Assembly (NCBI RefSeq): GCF_020991085.1
Contig: NZ_CP087719.1
Location: 4,945,001 to 5,009,000 of the forward strand
Direction of reading: 5' to 3'
Source of the DNA: Roseomonas sp. OT10
Lineage (GTDB): Bacteria; Pseudomonadota; Alphaproteobacteria; Acetobacterales; Acetobacteraceae
DNA: 64,000 nt
In this document: in pieces, positions 389 to 46,187 of the stretch
Position numbering within the stretch: the stretch's first letter is position 1
Layout of the letters: each line of letters starts with the position of its first letter
Translations under genes and position numbers: made by a program
The notes under the pieces: model-generated
What the model was told of the DNA's origin: nothing
Seen by the model: only the letters and a program-made list of their open reading frames with translations
The model's database searches: none

Positions 389-3135
<2,747 letters not shown>

Positions 3136-3239
3136 CACCACAGCCGCCGCCGGGGCCTCAAAAACCCCGCCGCACGCAGCACCAAAGCGCACTCCCACTC
3201 ACCCCCTCACACCCAATCCCCACATCCGTTCCCGTCCGG

Positions 3240-3358
3240 TGGCCTGGTGGCCATTGCGGGGCTGCCACACCCGATCCCATCCCGAACTCGGCCGTGAAAC
3301 GCCCCTGCGCCCATGGTACTGCAGCTTAAGCTGCGGGAGAGTCGGTCGCCGCCAGGCC
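3240..3358 (+). rRNA. 5S ribosomal RNA
   Basis: About 118 nt, with the conserved core CCCATCCCGAACTCGG and GTGAAACGCC. The ends GGCCTGGTGG and CCGCCAGGCC pair to form helix I. It lies about 105 nt after 23S in the standard order. Ends are good to within about 3 nt. Confidence 0.93.
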
Positions 3359-3387
3359 GCCAGACGGGATCCCTTCAACATCACCCC

Positions 3388-3464
<77 letters not shown>

Positions 3465-34927: not shown

Positions 34928-36640
34928 CTACCGGACCTTCCACTCCGTCACCCAGAGCGAGGAGAAGTTCAGGTGCCCGGTCGGCCGCACGCCGTCGAGC
35001 CATTGCGGCCAGACATGCGCGTCGGCGCGGTGCCAGAGCGGCAGGGCGGGGAGCTGCTCGGCGGTGATGGCCTGGAGCCTCGCCCAGAGGGGCCGGCGCT
35101 TCGCAGGGTCCAGCTCCTCGGGCAGCGCCTCGATCAGCGCATCCATCTCCGCGTTGCGGAAGCCGGGGTAGTTCTGGCCCGACCAGTTGCGCTCGGCGGT
35201 CGGGATCTCCGAGGAGTGCAGCGTGCTGCGCGGCACGTTCTCCGGGCTGCTGACCCAGGCGAAGAGGGCGCCGCCGGTGAAGCGGCGCTGCGACAGCGTT
35301 TCCGCGAAGAGGACGCGCGGCGGCTCGTTGCGGATGCGCGCCTCCACGCCGATGGCGCGCCACATGCCCTGGATCACCTGCTGCACCTGCTCGCGGGCGC
35401 GGTTGCCGGCGGTGGTCATGAACTCGAAGGACAGTCGCTCGCCCGCCGCGTTCCGGCGGATGCCGCCCTCGCCGGGTTTCCAGCCGGCCTCCTCCAGCAG
35501 GGCCTGGGCGCGGGCGGGGTCGAAGGGCCAGCGGCGGACCTCGGGGTCGGACATCGGGTCGTCCGGGTGGATGCCGGTGGCGGCGACCGGCTGACGGCCG
35601 CCGTAGAGGCTCTGCACGATGCGGCCGCGGTCCATGCCCAGCAGCAGCGCCTGCCGCACCCGGACATCCGCCAGGACCGGGTTGTCCAGGTTGAGGTCGA
35701 TGTGCTCCCAGACCAGGCCCGGCTTGTACTCGAAGCGGAAGCGGCTGCCGGTGCGGCGTTCCAGCGCGATCGCCTGGTCCAGCGGCAGGCCCAGCTCGCC
35801 CGCGACCATGTCCACCTGCCCGGCGAGGAGCTGCGCCTCCAGCGCGGCGGTGTTCTCCACGGCACGGATGATGATTCGCTGGAAGGCGGGGGCGGGGCCC
35901 GTCCAGCCCGGGTTGCGCTCCAGCGCGATGCTGGCGCCGGGCTGCACGCCGGCGACGCGGTAGGGGCCGCTCCACAGGCCCGGGTTGGCGCTCTCCGTGT
36001 CGTAGCCGGTGCGGGAGCGGTAGCCGCGCTTGTCCGCCTCCCAGCGCGGGCGTTCGAGGCGGGCGGGCAGGGGAACGAAGTTGCCGGCGGAAGCGTAGTC
36101 GAAGGTGACCTTGTCGAAGCGCAGGGTCACGCTGCGCGGGTCGTCGGAGAGGAACTCGTAGGCGGAGCGATAGAACTCCGCGCCGCCGAAGCCCGTCTCG
36201 AAGGCGCGGCCGGCCTCCCAGGCGAAGCGCAGGTCCTCCGCGGTGACGGGCGTGCCGTCGCCCCAGCGCAGCCCCTCGCGCAGGCGCCAGGTGACGCGCA
36301 GCCCGGGCTTGCCGTCCGGCGTCGTCTCCCGCACCGCCTGCCCGTTCTCCAACGAGGGCAGGGTGTCGCAGCCCAGGCATTGCAGCGTCCAGTCGGGGCC
36401 GTAGGCGGTGAGCGGCAGGTGGGTGAAGCCCAGCGTGTAGGACTTCGCCACCATGGATTCGATGTTGGGGTGCAGCGTCGAGGGGAACTGGGTGATCCCG
36501 ATGGTGAGCTGCTCGCGGGCGGGTGGCGGGGGTTGTGCCGTGACGGGCGAAGCGATTGCTGAGATAGCAACTGCCGCCATGAAGCGATGCGTGAAGCGCG
36601 TCGGCCAGCGAGCCTGAAGCAGGACTGGAAATGGCAGCAT
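34928..36640 (-). CDS. ABC transporter substrate-binding protein, peptide/nickel type (SBP_bac_5)
   Basis: A receptor of the DppA/OppA family, about 570 residues, periplasmic. Family marks: LTIGITQFPSTLHPNIES, LREGLRWGDGTPVTAEDLRFAWEAG, and repeated aromatic ligand-contact regions. The signal peptide core is FMAAVAISAIASPVTAQ. The start is uncertain: ATG 36640 gives a long n-region, ATG 36583 a very short one, and the frame stays open to 36742. Its 5' end borders the low-GC defence island, and its promoter region may have been partly replaced. It serves the two permeases downstream. Confidence 0.85.
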   Translation of the reverse strand: MLPFPVLLQARWPTRFTHRFMAAVAISAIASPVTAQPPPPAREQLTIGITQFPSTLHPNIESMVAKSYTLGFTHLPLTAYGPDWTLQCLGCDTLPSLENGQAVRETTPDGKPGLRVTWRLREGLRWGDGTPVTAEDLRFAWEAGRAFETGFGGAEFYRSAYEFLSDDPRSVTLRFDKVTFDYASAGNFVPLPARLERPRWEADKRGYRSRTGYDTESANPGLWSGPYRVAGVQPGASIALERNPGWTGPAPAFQRIIIRAVENTAALEAQLLAGQVDMVAGELGLPLDQAIALERRTGSRFRFEYKPGLVWEHIDLNLDNPVLADVRVRQALLLGMDRGRIVQSLYGGRQPVAATGIHPDDPMSDPEVRRWPFDPARAQALLEEAGWKPGEGGIRRNAAGERLSFEFMTTAGNRAREQVQQVIQGMWRAIGVEARIRNEPPRVLFAETLSQRRFTGGALFAWVSSPENVPRSTLHSSEIPTAERNWSGQNYPGFRNAEMDALIEALPEELDPAKRRPLWARLQAITAEQLPALPLWHRADAHVWPQWLDGVRPTGHLNFSSLWVTEWKVR

Positions 36641-36797
36641 TCCCGCAAGTTCGGACACTCCGAACCGTCGCACAAGGCCCGGGGCTGTCTGGGCGCGGCT
36701 GGATATTCTACCCAAAGTGGTATTCACTGCCGGAAAGCGCACTAGCGTCTAAATTTTTTTACTAAGATTCTATCCGTCATGGCGAGCGAAGAACAGG

Positions 36798-38579
36798 ATG
36801 GCGTTCATGCTCATGGAAGTCTTGGCTGCCGCTCTGCAGCCGCCGCTGAACCTCCTGTTTACGTGCGCCATCCTCGCCTTGGCCATGCTGGCCATCGCCG
36901 GCGTGTTCCTGTCTGTGCGCCCCCTCAACCGTCTGACAGTGATCGCACCGGGAATGCTGACCGCCCTGGGCGTCCTGGGCACGTTCTTCGGCATCCTTGT
37001 CGGCCTTCTCCGTTTCAATGTCGCGGACCTCAACGCGAGCGTTCCGCTCTTGCTGGACGGGATGAAGACGGCCTTCGTGACAAGCGTTATCGGAACGGGA
37101 TCAGGTCTTCTGGTCAAACTGATCTCGATCGTGGTGGGCGAGCGTGGACCGATGACGGAGGATGGTGGTGCTGAGGCCGTCATCGCCCTTTTAGGAACCA
37201 TTAGCGACGAGGCGAAACAAACCAGGCGCGATATGGTGGCGGGGCTTGATCGTGTCCGGGGCAGTTTAGTCGGTGACGGCGATTCGAGTCTCGTAACGCA
37301 GGTACAAAAGCTTCGCAACGAACTTGTGGACGAATTGCGCTCGACTCGTAAGGCCGGTCAGGACGCGGCAGCCGCAGCCGAACGCACAGGCGGCGAACTG
37401 CGCTATGAGATCGAGAGACAATTTGCGGAAAGCCGGCGGACGGCCGACGAGTCTGCCCTGGCATTGGTGAGGGAGGTGAGGGGTATTGCCGCTACATTGT
37501 CCGAGGGCGTCACTGCCGGGCTGGTGAAGGCATTGGAAGGATTGATCCGTTATTTCAACAGCAAACTGAGCGAGCAGTTCGGTGAGAACTTCAAGCAGTT
37601 GAATGCCGCCGTCGGGCGCCTTTTGGACTGGCAAGAGGCATACCGGACGCAAATGGAGGCGAACGCCGCGGCCCTGCGGGAGGGAGAGGCTGGCATTCGG
37701 GCCGCGCGGGCAGGCATCGAGGCGATCGCTGCGAGCAGCGGTCATCTCGTTCAGTTTGCTGCCTCGATGGAAGCGACTTTGACAGCGTCCGCACGGCTAC
37801 GTGACGATCTGGAACGTCGTCTCGCTGCCTTTCGGGACATGGCCGAGAAGGCGCAGAACGCATTCCCGACGATTCAGGCCAAACTGTTGGAGATGACCGA
37901 AGCGTTCGCAGCAGATGTCCGCACTGCAATGGCGGAGAGCCGCCGGGCAGTGGATGAGTTCCGCGAGGCAACCCGCGCACACGGCGTCGCCCTGGTTGAG
38001 CACGCTGACGGGTTTGTCCTGGCCGTTGGGGGTGCCGCGTCGAGGACCACGACCGCACTGGAAAGGTCCGCGCAGTCCGTCGAGTCCGTCGCGGTCTCGG
38101 TAAAGACCGGGGCCGAGGCCGCTCAGACTACGCAGGAGAAAAGTTTGGAAGCTCTCCGACAAGGCTTCGAACGTCTTCGCGAGGACGCGTCTACCTCTGG
38201 TGAGCATGTCCGCAAGGCAATCGACGACCTGGGTGTCAGCTTGCAGGAGCGGTTGCGGGTAGCGAATGAAGCAAGCTTGGCGCAGCTCACGAGCACGGTA
38301 AATGCTGTGGCCAAACAGCTTCAGACCACGACCGAACGAGAATTCAGCAAAATTGCAGATGGCCTGGGACAGCAGATCCGTTGGGTAGATACGGAGATCA
38401 ACAAGAAATTCCAGGATGTCGTCGAAGATTTCGGAAAATCACTGGTGTCCATCACCAGTCATTTTGCCAGTGACTACAGACCCTTGGCTGACCGCCTTCG
38501 GGAGATACTCCTCATTGTGGAACGCAGTCAGAATTTCCGTGGCGAGCGACCGTCCTTTGAGCATGAGGGGCGCCGATGA
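36798..38579 (+). CDS. zorA: ZorA-like MotA/ExbB-type channel protein with long coiled-coil tail
   Basis: A 593-residue protein. Three membrane helices (about 17-40, 50-71, 91-113) carry the MotA/TolQ/ExbB signature: GMLTALGVLGTFFGILVG and LLDGMKTAFVTSVIGTG. Residues about 115-590 form a very long, charged helical tail with heptad-like patterns. This build is that of ZorA, the stator-like ion-channel subunit of Zorya, whose tail reaches into the cytoplasm and passes on the phage signal. ATG 36798 is the track start; ATG 36807, with AGGA eight bases upstream, is an alternative. The stop overlaps zorB by ATGA. AlgX- or flagellum-type genes are absent, which argues against a motility stator. Confidence 0.87.
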   Translation: MAFMLMEVLAAALQPPLNLLFTCAILALAMLAIAGVFLSVRPLNRLTVIAPGMLTALGVLGTFFGILVGLLRFNVADLNASVPLLLDGMKTAFVTSVIGTGSGLLVKLISIVVGERGPMTEDGGAEAVIALLGTISDEAKQTRRDMVAGLDRVRGSLVGDGDSSLVTQVQKLRNELVDELRSTRKAGQDAAAAAERTGGELRYEIERQFAESRRTADESALALVREVRGIAATLSEGVTAGLVKALEGLIRYFNSKLSEQFGENFKQLNAAVGRLLDWQEAYRTQMEANAAALREGEAGIRAARAGIEAIAASSGHLVQFAASMEATLTASARLRDDLERRLAAFRDMAEKAQNAFPTIQAKLLEMTEAFAADVRTAMAESRRAVDEFREATRAHGVALVEHADGFVLAVGGAASRTTTALERSAQSVESVAVSVKTGAEAAQTTQEKSLEALRQGFERLREDASTSGEHVRKAIDDLGVSLQERLRVANEASLAQLTSTVNAVAKQLQTTTEREFSKIADGLGQQIRWVDTEINKKFQDVVEDFGKSLVSITSHFASDYRPLADRLREILLIVERSQNFRGERPSFEHEGRR

Positions 38580-39307
38580 CACCCGCACTAATGCGGCGAA
38601 AGGTCACGCCAGAAGAGGGTGAGCAGTGGCTCTCCGTGGCGGACCTGATGTCAGGTCTGATGATCATTTTCCTGTTCCTGGCCGTGAGTTATCTTCGACC
38701 GCTCGTGGACCGCAATGCAGACCTAGAGGAGGCGCGCGAGCGCGTTCGGCAGATCGTCGTGGCATTTACAGAGGACGAAGGACGCCTTGCCGATGAATTG
38801 GAACAGAGCATCGGCTCCGATCTTCCTCGATGGGGAGGCGAACTGGATCGCGCGCGCCTTGCGGTGCGGTTTCGCGCGCCTGACCTACTCTTCGAGCAGG
38901 GGCAGGCGAGGTTGCGCCCCGAATTCCGCCGAGTGCTGGAAGAGTTTCTGCCTCGGTATCTGGCGGTGTTGTCGCGTAACAGCACCAGTATAGAAGAGGT
39001 GCGCATTGAGGGACATACCTCCTCGGAATGGAACGGTGCGACGAGCCCGACCGACGCCTTCTTCCGCAACATGGCGTTGTCGCAGGACCGTACTCGTTCA
39101 GTACTGGAAGTTGTGCTGACGGCGAGGGCTCTTGAGAGTTATCGTGACTGGGCAAGGTCCACAGTGACTGCGAACGGACTTGCCTCGGCTCGCCCGATTG
39201 CGCGGCTGAATGCCGAGGAGGATACCGAACGGTCCCGCCGGGTCGAATTTCGAGTGGTGACACGTGCCAGGGAGAAAGTTCTGCGCGTGCTGGACGCTGT
39301 CCGATGA
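38576..39307 (+). CDS. zorB: ZorB-like MotB/OmpA-type peptidoglycan-binding subunit
   Basis: A 243-residue protein with one N-terminal membrane helix (about 24-43) led by Asp23 in WLSVADLMSGLM, the position of the ion-carrying Asp of MotB/ZorB. A short helical linker follows, then an OmpA-like domain (about 95-235) with RIEGHTSSEW, a SQDRTRSVLEVVL helix and the closing SRRVEFRVV. It would pair with ZorA, anchor the complex to peptidoglycan and form the ion path. It overlaps both neighbours by four bases, so translation is coupled. Confidence 0.87.
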   Translation: MTPALMRRKVTPEEGEQWLSVADLMSGLMIIFLFLAVSYLRPLVDRNADLEEARERVRQIVVAFTEDEGRLADELEQSIGSDLPRWGGELDRARLAVRFRAPDLLFEQGQARLRPEFRRVLEEFLPRYLAVLSRNSTSIEEVRIEGHTSSEWNGATSPTDAFFRNMALSQDRTRSVLEVVLTARALESYRDWARSTVTANGLASARPIARLNAEEDTERSRRVEFRVVTRAREKVLRVLDAVR

Positions 39308-40164
39308 ACGACGTCATGTCATGGCTGGCAGAACTGGATCGTTTGCGCGTCCGGATGGGAGCTCCGCAAGCGTCCTGGGACTGGAAAGTGCGCGACCGGT
39401 TGCCGGTCGAGCCTCCTCGCCCGATCTTCGAGAAAGAAGTCAGCCTTGAAGATCTCAAAGTTGGGGAAGCCGGAACTCTTACTGCTGAGGGTGTGCGGGT
39501 CTTCCTGTACATCATGGAACCCAGTCGTGCCTTCGAATCCCTCGCTTCTGCGGGTGGTCCGGACAATCTCCTGCCGCGCTTCCATGTTGCTTGGTGTCGC
39601 AAGCTGGATGAAATGAAGCGCAGCGGACGATTTGAACGGTACGTTGCTACGGATGAGGCTGAAAAGTCGTTCAAAATGGTCGTGAGGACGGAAAGTGGTG
39701 ATTTGGAGTCTGGAAGAGCCGATTTGCATGTCTGTAGGCTTTGCCTGAGTTTCCTTAATTGGCGGGACTATCGTCGGTGCGATGCCGAGGCGCGGAATGA
39801 GCGAGTTAGGAACTTTTCGCGCCGCGAATTTCTGGAAACTCATTCGACCCACTTCGAACATGTTCCGTCACGAACCGATGAGACCGCTCGTCATTTCGGT
39901 TACACTGCGGATTGGAACAGGGTTTCGAAGGAGTACCGGAAATTCCAGAACTGGCGGTGTGAGAGATGTGGCGTGGACTGCACGGAGAATCAGGGGCTCC
40001 TCGATACGCATCACCGCGACGGCGTGGTCAGTAACAATGCATGGAGCAACCTGCGTGCCCTATGCAAATCGTGCCACGTCGAAGAACACCCACGCTGGTA
40101 CCGCATTTCTGATGCGCAAAGGAAGGCCATAGAGACCCTCCGCAAAAGCAGATCACGCGGCTGA
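39304..40164 (+). CDS. zorE: ZorE-like HNH endonuclease
   Basis: A 286-residue nuclease. The C-terminal HNH domain has zinc pairs Cys219/Cys222 and Cys254/Cys257, catalytic His236/His237 in DTHHRDG, Asn249 and His258/His262. An N-terminal region carries a second likely metal knuckle (His94, Cys98, Cys144, Cys147) in a domain with FHVAWCRKLDEM and VCRLCLSFLNW. An HNH protein as the third gene after ZorAB defines type II Zorya, where ZorE is the DNA-damaging effector. It overlaps zorB by ATGA. A restriction-type HNH is possible, but the fixed gene order makes the effector role more likely. Confidence 0.83.
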   Translation: MNDVMSWLAELDRLRVRMGAPQASWDWKVRDRLPVEPPRPIFEKEVSLEDLKVGEAGTLTAEGVRVFLYIMEPSRAFESLASAGGPDNLLPRFHVAWCRKLDEMKRSGRFERYVATDEAEKSFKMVVRTESGDLESGRADLHVCRLCLSFLNWRDYRRCDAEARNERVRNFSRREFLETHSTHFEHVPSRTDETARHFGYTADWNRVSKEYRKFQNWRCERCGVDCTENQGLLDTHHRDGVVSNNAWSNLRALCKSCHVEEHPRWYRISDAQRKAIETLRKSRSRG

Positions 40165-40192
40165 AGTCTGGTCCATCATTCGACTTCCGGCC

Positions 40193-40939
40193 TCACCCCG
40201 CCGTCTTCGCCTTCATCAGCGCCTTCGCTTCCTCGGCGCTGCCGACCCCGCCATGGCTCTTGGACCACATCACCGGGTCCTCCAGGAACTTGCGCACCTC
40301 GCGCAGCGCGCTCTCCTCGAAATAGGGCTGCTCGCGGCACGCCTCCAGCACGTCCCACCAGGTGCAGAGGTGGTGCAGGGTGAGGTTCATCTCCTTCATC
40401 GTCTGGAAGGCGCCGGGGAACACGCCGTAAAAGAAGATGACGAAGGTATGGTCGCAGATCGCGCCCGCGTCGCGCAGCGCCTGGGCGAAGGCGATCTTGG
40501 AGCCGCCGTCGGTGGTCAGGTCCTCCACCAGGAGGGTGCGCTTGCCCTCGGGCACGTCGCCCTCGATCTGGGCGTTGCGGCCGAAGCCCTTGGGCTTCTT
40601 CCGGACATAGGCCATCGGCGCCATCATCCGGTCGGCGATCCAGGCGGCGTAGGGGATGCCGGCGGTTTCGCCGCCCGCCACGGCCTCGATGGTCTCGTAG
40701 CCGATGTGGCGGCCGATCTTCTCCACCGCCAGCTCGCAGATCTTCGCCCGCGCCCGGGGGAAGTAGATGATCCGGCGGACGTCGATGTAGACGGGGGACT
40801 TCCAGCCGGAGGTGAAGGTGTAGGGCTCCTCCGGCCGGAAGTTGACCGCCTTGATCTCCAGCAGGATCCGCGCGGTGGTGAGGGCCGCGTCGCGGTCCCA
40901 GTCGGAAACTCGTGGTTCGGGGGCGTGTCGGGCAGTCAT
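40193..40939 (-). CDS. pyrE: orotate phosphoribosyltransferase
   Basis: A 248-residue enzyme that joins orotate and PRPP to OMP in pyrimidine synthesis. The PRPP-binding loop is TLLVEDLTTDGGSK, and the flexible catalytic loop is YVRKKPKGFGRNAQIEGD with its lysines. It is longer than E. coli PyrE (213), as in many alphaproteobacteria. AAGGAG lies about 11 bases before ATG 40939. It is the first ordinary chromosomal gene on the right of the defence island and converges with it, 28 bases apart. Confidence 0.93.
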   Translation of the reverse strand: MTARHAPEPRVSDWDRDAALTTARILLEIKAVNFRPEEPYTFTSGWKSPVYIDVRRIIYFPRARAKICELAVEKIGRHIGYETIEAVAGGETAGIPYAAWIADRMMAPMAYVRKKPKGFGRNAQIEGDVPEGKRTLLVEDLTTDGGSKIAFAQALRDAGAICDHTFVIFFYGVFPGAFQTMKEMNLTLHHLCTWWDVLEACREQPYFEESALREVRKFLEDPVMWSKSHGGVGSAEEAKALMKAKTAG

Positions 40940-40985
40940 GCGGGTCGAGGCTCCTTCGGGTGTCAGGGTTACGGCAGAACGGCGT

Positions 40986-41033
40986 CGGGCGGAACCGCCC
41001 GCGTGGAGAAGCCGGGCGGAACCGCCCGCGTGG
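40986..41033 (+). repeat. two direct copies of a 21-bp palindromic unit
   Basis: CGGGCGGAACCGCCCGCGTGG occurs at 40986-41006 and 41013-41033 (one base inside the limit is shared by both; period 27). Each holds GGGC/GCCC inverted arms. It lies in the short space between divergent pyrE and the ELM1-like gene, so it may affect either promoter, or be slippage. Confidence 0.7.
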
Positions 41034-41041
41034 GGCATCGC

Positions 41042-41983
41042 GTGAGCGGCGATCGCGTCTGGGTCCTGGCCGATCCCCGCGCCGGCACCGCCGCCCAGCC
41101 GCTGGGGCTTGCGGAGCGGCTGGGCGTGCCCTTCCGGACCGTGCCGCTGGAATGGGGGCCGCTCGCCCGGCTGCCCTGGCCCGTGCCGACGCTCGCGGGG
41201 CTGACGCGCGAGGCCCGGGCCCGCGTCGCGGGCCAGCCGGCGCCCGCGCTGGTGCTCTCGGCCGGGCGGCGCTCCGCCCCGGTGGCGAGATGGCTGCGGG
41301 CGCGGGGCGCCCGGACGGTGCACATGATGCGACCGGGCTTCGGGGCGCGCGACTTCGACCTGCTGCTGGTCGGCCGCCACGACGCGCCCGCCCCGGCGCC
41401 GAACCTGCTGCCCGTGCTGGGCGCGCTGCACCGCCTCTCGCCGGAGCGGCTGGTGGCGGCGCGGGCGGAATGGGGGGCGCTGGCGGCGCTGCCCCGGCCG
41501 CGCGTGGCGCTGCTGCTGGGCGGGCCGGTGCGGGGGGAGGGGATGGACCCTGGCCTCGCCGCCGGGCTGGTGCCGCAACTGCTGGCCCGCTTCCCCGGCG
41601 CGGGGGTGATGGCCACCGCCAGCCGCCGCACCGGGGCCGAGGCCACCGCCGCCCTGGCCGCCGCGCTGGCGCCGCTGCCGCACCGGCTGTTCCGCTGGGG
41701 CGATGCGGGGCCGAACCCCTATGCCGGCTTCCTGGCCTGGGCGGATGCGGTGGTGGTCACGGGGGACAGCGTCTCCATGCTCTCGGAGGCCGGGGCGACC
41801 GGGGCGCCGGTTCTGGTCGCGACCCGCGAGGAGGGGCGCCACCGCCGGCTGGCCGAGAGCCTGGTCGCGGCGGGCGTCGCCGGGATGCTGGACGGGGGCG
41901 CCACCCCCGCCCCGCACGCGCCGCTGGACGAGACGGGCCGGGTCGCGGCGCTGCTGCGCGAGCGGGGCTGGGTGCCGGACTGA
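41042..41983 (+). CDS. mitochondrial fission ELM1 family protein (COG3660)
   Basis: A 313-residue protein of the ELM1/COG3660 family, which looks like a GT-B glycosyltransferase. Visible: an N-terminal VWVLADPRAGTAAQPLGLAERL, a central LLLGGP glycine turn, then SRRTG and the C-terminal WADAVVVTGDSVSMLSEA, a nucleotide-sugar-like site. Plant ELM1 recruits dynamin; bacterial members probably modify surface glycans. The start GTG 41042 lies just after the 21-bp repeats and is divergent from pyrE. No neighbour clarifies its substrate. Confidence 0.85.
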   Translation: MSGDRVWVLADPRAGTAAQPLGLAERLGVPFRTVPLEWGPLARLPWPVPTLAGLTREARARVAGQPAPALVLSAGRRSAPVARWLRARGARTVHMMRPGFGARDFDLLLVGRHDAPAPAPNLLPVLGALHRLSPERLVAARAEWGALAALPRPRVALLLGGPVRGEGMDPGLAAGLVPQLLARFPGAGVMATASRRTGAEATAALAAALAPLPHRLFRWGDAGPNPYAGFLAWADAVVVTGDSVSMLSEAGATGAPVLVATREEGRHRRLAESLVAAGVAGMLDGGATPAPHAPLDETGRVAALLRERGWVPD

Positions 41984-45059: not shown

Positions 45060-45487
45060 CCTGACCGATTGTGCTGTGGTGTTCGGGCGAGGGACCGGAA
45101 GGGGACGCCGGCCTGCGGCATCGACGCCGTGCGTCGATCCCCGTCCCAGACCCTCCCCTGCCGGGGCCACAAGCGGGCCCCGGTCCCCGCTGGGAGTCTG
45201 GTGCTTCCGGTAGGCTTCAGCCTCCGGGCTGAAGCCAAGGAGCGCGCGGACAGGCGGGACTCCAGAATAGCTTTGAAGGCGTCAGCGAATGCTGCGGCCG
45301 GTCCCGCCGAGGAGCCATGCTCCTCGGCGCCTCGACCCCGTGTCAGGCTGTCCCGCGGCAGCGCTGATCGGGTCCAGGGCCCGCAGGGTTCTGGCGGAGT
45401 GGGGGTACGGGGGCGAGGCAGCGCCTTGCCCCCGGGCCACGGGCGCACCCCGCGCCGGCATGGACCAGGCCATCCCGCCGTCCGTAT
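45042..45487 (+). repeat. dispersed hairpin-rich repeat, copy R2
   Basis: A 446-bp copy with the clearest ends: ATACCGACGTTGGGATGACCTG (first 16 bases at 45042-45057) against ATCCCGCCGTCCGTAT at 45472-45487. Sixteen end bases pair with three mismatches, and the match continues to about 22. Internal hairpins match R1 (CCGGGGCC/GGCCCCGG at 45161-45183; CCGAGGAGC/GCTCCTCGG-like near 45310; GGGGGC/GCCCCC near 45410). It sits between two halves of what looks like one reading frame, so it probably inserted there. Confidence 0.85.
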
Positions 45488-45488
45488 C

Positions 45489-46187
45489 AGTCGCAAGGCG
45501 GTGGGGAAATCGGGAAGCCCCGCGGCCCACTCTCTGGCCGTGGCCAATGCCGACCAGTTGTTCGAGCGGGCGATCCTCGGCTGGGGCAAGCCGGACCGTG
45601 AAGGCGCCCCCAACATCGACGCCCTGTACCGCTTCCTTGCGCTGGTGGTGACGCCGGATCGCCGTGCCATGCGGGCGAAACTGACGGTCCAGGAGATCGT
45701 GGACGGCACCACGCCGAACGGGCTCCATATGGTGGAGGCGGTGGAGTTCAACGACGCCAAACCTGCTGACCCATGGGTCCGGGAAGCGGCTCGGGACGAT
45801 GCCTTGGGCATCGGGAAAGAAAGTCCCCTGCGGGGGGAGTGGGCGGCCGAGATTGCCGGGTCCGAAGACCAGGCCCTAAAACCAGCCCTCTATGGTTTCC
45901 GGCTCACGGAGCCCGTGAACCGCGCCGCAGGGGTCATACCCAATCTAGCGGGTGATGGGCGGCATCTCAATGCTGGCGATGACGACATCCGCCATAGCGT
46001 CGAGCCGCACACCGTTGATGCGATCCGAGCGGTCATCGAAGCGGCCTGCTGGCCAGGGCATGCCCCCGGAAGGGAGACCTGGGCACGTCTCGAACTGAAT
46101 CATACTGGCCGCGCGTCACACCATCGAGAACCACGACGACGAGAAGACCGAACGGTCGCGTGGTCAGATCGCCGTGACGGATGCTGA
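45489..46187 (+). pseudogene. fragment of a phage-type polyvalent/PBECR-like protein, 3' part
   Basis: The frame resumes with SRKAVGKSGSPAAHSLAVAN, then DQLFERAILGWGKPDREGAPN and KLTVQEIVDG, all typical of the C-terminal half of PBECR-like nuclease domains as I recall them. Joined to the 44920 fragment without R2, the spacing between LDKM and AVGKS would be natural. Later residues lose similarity, so it is decayed. No start or ribosome site. Confidence 0.6.

Follow-up and report, generated by a model that had tools for sequence, protein, structure and literature searches.

The locus studied here raises the question of whether three overlapping genes of Roseomonas sp. OT10 form a complete type II Zorya anti-phage system, and whether such a system would act in the same way as its relatives. 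In this study, the window means the whole stretch of DNA that was analyzed (64,000 nucleotides of contig NZ_CP087719.1), and all positions refer to it. Profile searches, alignments, and comparison with solved or tested relatives indicate that the operon is almost certainly a complete type II Zorya that would act as these relatives suggest. The locus is an ordinary but diverged member of a known system and does not represent a novel type. With it, the set of type II Zorya gains an intact member that was probably acquired horizontally and in which the short ZorE is clearly seen.

Organization and Identity of the Operon

The operon lies on the + strand and includes zorA (36798..38579, 593 aa), zorB (38576..39307, 243 aa), and a short form of zorE (39304..40164, 286 aa), each with an ATG start. 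ZorA is the putative membrane subunit of the motor, and its cytoplasmic tail is long. ZorB has an N-terminal helix with D23 and an OmpA-like peptidoglycan-binding domain, and ZorE combines an N-terminal domain (H94, C98, C144, and C147) with a C-terminal HNH nuclease domain. The initial annotation described the genes as joined by four-base overlaps, and this agrees with the ORF coordinates and with the sequences at the zorA–zorB and zorB–zorE joints, both of which are ATGA. Long ORFs overlap the same region on the opposite strand; such ORFs are common in G+C-rich DNA. In addition, a consensus scan found no sigma-70-like promoter for the operon.

The proposed assignment to type II Zorya was borne out by the profile searches. 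The best PADLOC families were ZorA2 (5.2e-79), ZorB2 (3e-76), and ZorE2 (2e-64), the top NCBIfam names were those of type II for all three proteins, and the type I and III Zorya models of PADLOC scored more weakly than type II. Furthermore, neither the two flanking genes nor six chosen nearby ORFs had a PADLOC match, be it to ZorC or ZorD (type I) or to ZorF or ZorG (type III). The NCBIfam scores were 173 bits for ZorA2, 195 for ZorB2, and 166 for ZorE, none of which reached the curated equivalog cut-offs of 700, 400, and 600, which are annotation thresholds and no biological definition of type II Zorya. These scores are in line with the earlier view that this member is diverged.

Compared with the type II Zorya of E. 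coli (ZorA2-ZorB2-ZorE, plasmid copy L013), the gene set and order are identical, and the motor aspartate, three of four wall-binding positions, the residues of the HNH domain, and the two zinc sites that have been predicted are kept. Nevertheless, the identity over aligned columns is only 22.1% for ZorA, 38.6% for ZorB, and 33.5% for ZorE. The genes of the window overlap, whereas those of L013 are separated by gaps of 6 and 3 bases.

The Motor Proteins ZorA and ZorB

Judged by eye, the hydrophobic helices of ZorA are located within about the first 112 residues and are followed by a tail of about 480 residues, which is consistent with the channel and tail of about 475 residues annotated before. 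In PADLOC, the ZorA2 model was far ahead of the best ZorA1 (3.4e-15) and ZorA3 (0.0026) models, and the NCBIfam ZorA2 match had an E value of 7.7e-51, below the cut-off. The best PDB match was 8VVI for both ZorA (chain F, 8e-40) and ZorB (chain A, 1.7e-38). This entry, the closest solved sequence match for the two proteins, is a type II ZorAB from Sulfuricurvum kujiense (PMC11890865). ZorA has 378 aa in 8VVI and 593 aa in the window, so the tail of the latter is longer. A search of the own genome for further copies of ZorA or ZorB found none.

For ZorB, the ZorB2 model of PADLOC (254 bits) exceeded the best ZorB1 model (1.6e-46). Residues 105-220 match OmpA (PF00691) above the Pfam cut-off, and D23 heads the sole N-terminal hydrophobic helix as judged by eye; both features had been predicted for a MotB-like protein. 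D23 aligns to D24 of E. coli ZorB, and aspartate is found in 15 of 16 ZorB-like sequences, the sixteenth being an ORF without that part. The wall-binding residues reported for E. coli ZorB are H141, S143, R215, and R230 (PMC11890865). The first three align with H147, S149, and R221 of the window, and the fourth is replaced by L236 in a column that has arginine in 3 of the 16 sequences.

The Short Form of ZorE

The ZorE of the window has 286 aa, compared with 367 aa in E. coli; it is without the C-terminal region of the E. coli protein and carries V242 at the position of K231. Its PADLOC ZorE2 match stops at position 277 of the 375 in the profile. We considered a frameshifted remnant of the C-terminal region past the stop and rejected it. 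The three + strand frames after the ZorE stop showed no remnant when read by eye, and when the C termini of 37 long ZorE were compared with positions 40101-41500 by tblastn, only chance-level matches resulted (best E 0.014 over 11 columns).

Short ZorE proteins are common among the homologues. Among 65 homologues, 30 have 272-303 aa, 34 have 355-391 aa, and one has 336 aa, with a start that extends 160 bases into zorB. These lengths come from 71 ZorE-positive loci after exclusion of L118, L147, L151, L162, and L175 (partial or displaced) and L128 (overlong start).

We also considered the pairing of Zorya II with Druantia III. The MZB family (PF09369), which we take to model the MrfA-like zinc module of DruE, had no match in the own genome; matches were found in 8 of 14 control genomes. 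DruE carries such a module according to a preprint (PMC13192584), and 53 of 59 Druantia-associated ZorE leaves were reported there to have an additional C-terminal region. This C-terminal extension, a trait of the pair, is absent from the ZorE of the window. A short ZorE in a genome without an MZB match fits a standalone Zorya and is no proof of it.

There is some chance, which we rate as fairly low, that the Zorya of this lineage, with its short ZorE, long ZorA, and valine in place of K231, engages DNA differently and stands alone, without coupling to Druantia. If this were true, type II Zorya would contain functionally distinct branches.

Domains and Conserved Residues of ZorE

The third gene had been described as an HNH nuclease. 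Residues 219-264 match HNH (PF01844) with 20.6 bits, slightly below the Pfam cut-off of 21.4. The AlphaFold2 model of ZorE has a mean pLDDT of 84.9 and a pTM of 0.53, with low confidence at residues 183-192. A fold search of the PDB with this model gave no match at E 0.001, and several of the weak matches were HNH proteins.

An additional CxxC is located at residues 144-147. The initial annotation had noticed this second cysteine knuckle as a feature of this member. The knuckle is indeed present, but the idea that it sets the member apart is not supported. We aligned the window ZorE with 57 sequences from the 71 ZorE-positive loci, leaving out partial and overlong sequences and five near-duplicates, and found that H94, C98, C144, C147, Y200, C219, C222, H236, H237, C254, C257, and H258 are invariant in all 58. 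Thus, judging from the alignment, the second knuckle is a trait of the ZorE family. In an earlier, partly overlapping set of 14 sequences, 11 of these 12 residues were invariant, and C257 was aspartate in L097. A 2026 preprint predicts an N-terminal zinc site in E. coli ZorE, assigns H90 to it, and names the domain DUF8245 (PMC13192584); the knuckle C144/C147, taken together with H94 and C98, is compatible with this prediction. The invariant N-terminal set (H-x3-C and C-x2-C) and Y200 could guide experimenters to the residues of interest.

According to the same preprint, the mutants H90A, Y189F, H226A, and K231A of E. coli ZorE abolished defence, and H90, E99, Y109, Y189, H226, N234, N238, L239, and H247 were discussed or mutated. 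All nine of the latter have identical counterparts in the window (H94, E103, Y113, Y200, H237, N245, N249, L250, and H258, respectively). Meanwhile, V242 stands for K231 and A246 for H235. The K231 column holds lysine in 45 of the 58 sequences and valine in 3, including the window. Thus, this lysine is not universal, although the E. coli protein reportedly depends on it. In the earlier alignment, R264 of the window was placed against H253 of E. coli. This is probably an alignment shift rather than a loss, because the column of H262 is histidine in 56 of the 58 sequences.

The replacement of K231 could also mean that the operon is a type II Zorya with a weakened or chemically altered ZorE, which might give little or no protection. 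We consider this unlikely. The predominance of lysine in the column and the long end branch of the window in the ZorE tree (1.74) speak for it, but all three frames are intact, and the 12 residues invariant in the family are all kept. Furthermore, 13 of the 58 sequences, the window among them, have a residue other than lysine at this position, as do 6 of 13 relatives of the earlier set (V in 2, R in 2, G in 1, and P in 1). That the apparent loss of H253 is probably a shift lowers the rating of this explanation further.

Relatives and Phylogeny

A scan of genome contigs with ZorE alone as a query found no relative. Within the class, 15 of 385 genomes encode ZorE-like proteins (nine matches with E < 1e-14, five weak ones, and the own genome), and the search of the order identified them in 7 of 299 genomes (the own genome, G154, G299, and four weak matches). 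The match in G299 covers only the last third of the protein and lies at a contig end. In all ten inspected stretches, namely those of the nine class matches below 1e-14 and of G154, ZorE is downstream of ZorA and ZorB. The ZorB family search gave matches in 15 of 200 genomes; except for those of the own genome, G154, and G080, none scored better than 1e-40. Both G154 and G080 belong to the same family as the host. The locus of G080 (L095) includes ZorA and ZorB, with no ZorE match in 11.5 kb.

A search of named genomes with a five-sequence ZorB alignment as the query gave 272 relatives, and the best 80 were used. A ZorE HMM match was found at 71 of these 80 loci, although in five of them it was partial or displaced, and was not found at L119, L138, L139, L153, L154, L165, L167, L184, and L186; the contig of L184 ends 407 bases past zorB. 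These results also bear on the idea of a motor without a role in defence (a flagellar, TolQR, ExbBD, or gliding stator) lying by chance beside an unrelated HNH gene, which is extremely improbable: the MotB, TssL, and YiaD profiles of OmpA type also score on ZorB, but with at most 40 bits against 195 (NCBIfam) and 254 (PADLOC) for ZorB2, ZorA has no match to a Pfam stator family at E 0.1, and the ZorAB trio with ZorE recurs across most relatives. Thus, neither of the outcomes sought as counter-evidence, best matches to such stators and an HNH protein not conserved beside ZorAB, was observed.

The highest ZorB identities to the window among the best 80 of the 272 relatives were those of two Elioraea loci, L108 (Elioraea sp. 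MAG, 55%) and L128 (Elioraea thermophila, 58%). Both have the gene order and the short ZorE of the window; L108 also shares both four-base overlaps, and L128 shares that between zorA and zorB. Their ZorA proteins have 530 aa (L108) and 513 aa (L128), compared with 593 aa in the window, and their ZorE is about 36% identical.

In the ZorE tree (79 rows), the window was grouped with two Elioraea sequences, with a support of 80/88, which is not firm. The nearest row by path was L097, and the highest identity was 37%, to L111. A branch of 39 rows (support 100/99) includes the E. coli plasmid protein and mostly long forms. However, the short ZorE of L173, L179, and L181 are inside this branch, and the long L111 is outside.

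Some loci in this collection had other features. L138, L139, L154, and L165 (Pseudoteredinibacter) encode type II-like ZorAB with no ZorE HMM match in the retrieved flanks, and the next ORF has 571-574 aa in all four. The same absence in the retrieved flanks was seen for the type II-like ZorAB of L167 and L186 (Romboutsia). Romboutsia is Gram-positive, and a wall-anchored ZorAB in this genus is of interest. In addition, the ZorA-matching ORFs of L150 and L144 have 963 and 813 aa (ORF-based lengths) beside ZorB of normal length.

Proposed Mechanism

In relatives, ZorA and ZorB form a rotary-type motor in a 5:2 ratio that is anchored in peptidoglycan, and on infection, ZorAB sends the ZorE nickase to the membrane (PMC11890865). 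By analogy, five ZorA and two ZorB of the window would assemble into an ion-driven motor in the inner membrane, anchored to the peptidoglycan through ZorB. Phage attack is the presumed trigger. Ion flow past D23 of ZorB would then turn or rearrange ZorA with its long cytoplasmic tail, and ZorE would be drawn to the membrane and nick DNA through its HNH domain. Such nicking would stop the phage, possibly at some cost to the cell. The motor, wall-binding, and nuclease residues are conserved in the alignments; the trigger, the assembly, and the cutting we infer from the relatives.

Genomic Setting and Probable Acquisition

The operon lies in a segment (36550..40192) between a gene for an ABC substrate-binding protein (Pfam SBP_bac_5) and pyrE, which encodes orotate phosphoribosyltransferase (NCBIfam, 388.6 bits vs. 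a cut-off of 245). Both flanking genes are on the strand opposite to the operon. The G+C content of the segment is 58.9%, compared with 73.6% at 5000-36549 and 73.4% at 40193-64000. Homology with the genus-mates G102 and G159 stops at about 36520-36549, within the ABC gene, and resumes at 40192-40193, within pyrE. The longest word shared by the two flanks of the segment has 8 bases, which was taken as chance.

None of 14 genus-mates had a match to ZorA, ZorB, or ZorE in the interval from pyrE to the ABC gene, and the positive control matched. Because of the low G+C content and a site empty of Zorya in all 14 genus-mates, the operon was probably acquired horizontally. The gap between match ends ranges from about 0.2 to 7.1 kb in these genomes, and only about 180-310 bases, counted from match ends, separate the two genes in G102, G159, and G301. 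This gap is a variable site in the genus. We also considered it as a defence hotspot. The gap contents were sampled from loci L083-L093, and Pfam matches of 10 chosen ORFs from 6 gaps were Nramp (4), DUF2252 (2), MFS (1), dehydrogenase (1), and RTX-repeat (1), with one ORF unmatched; these Pfam contents do not show the gap to be a defence hotspot.

Two other features of the window were observed. An ORF at 45069-46187 (+) has a weak match to LPD3 (large polyvalent protein-associated; 28.4 bits vs. a cut-off of 27) and no PADLOC match, and it is possibly no real gene. The end of an rRNA operon, with 23S, 5S, and tRNA-Met, is located at 393-3464 (+), and it accounts for the low G+C content at the start of the window.
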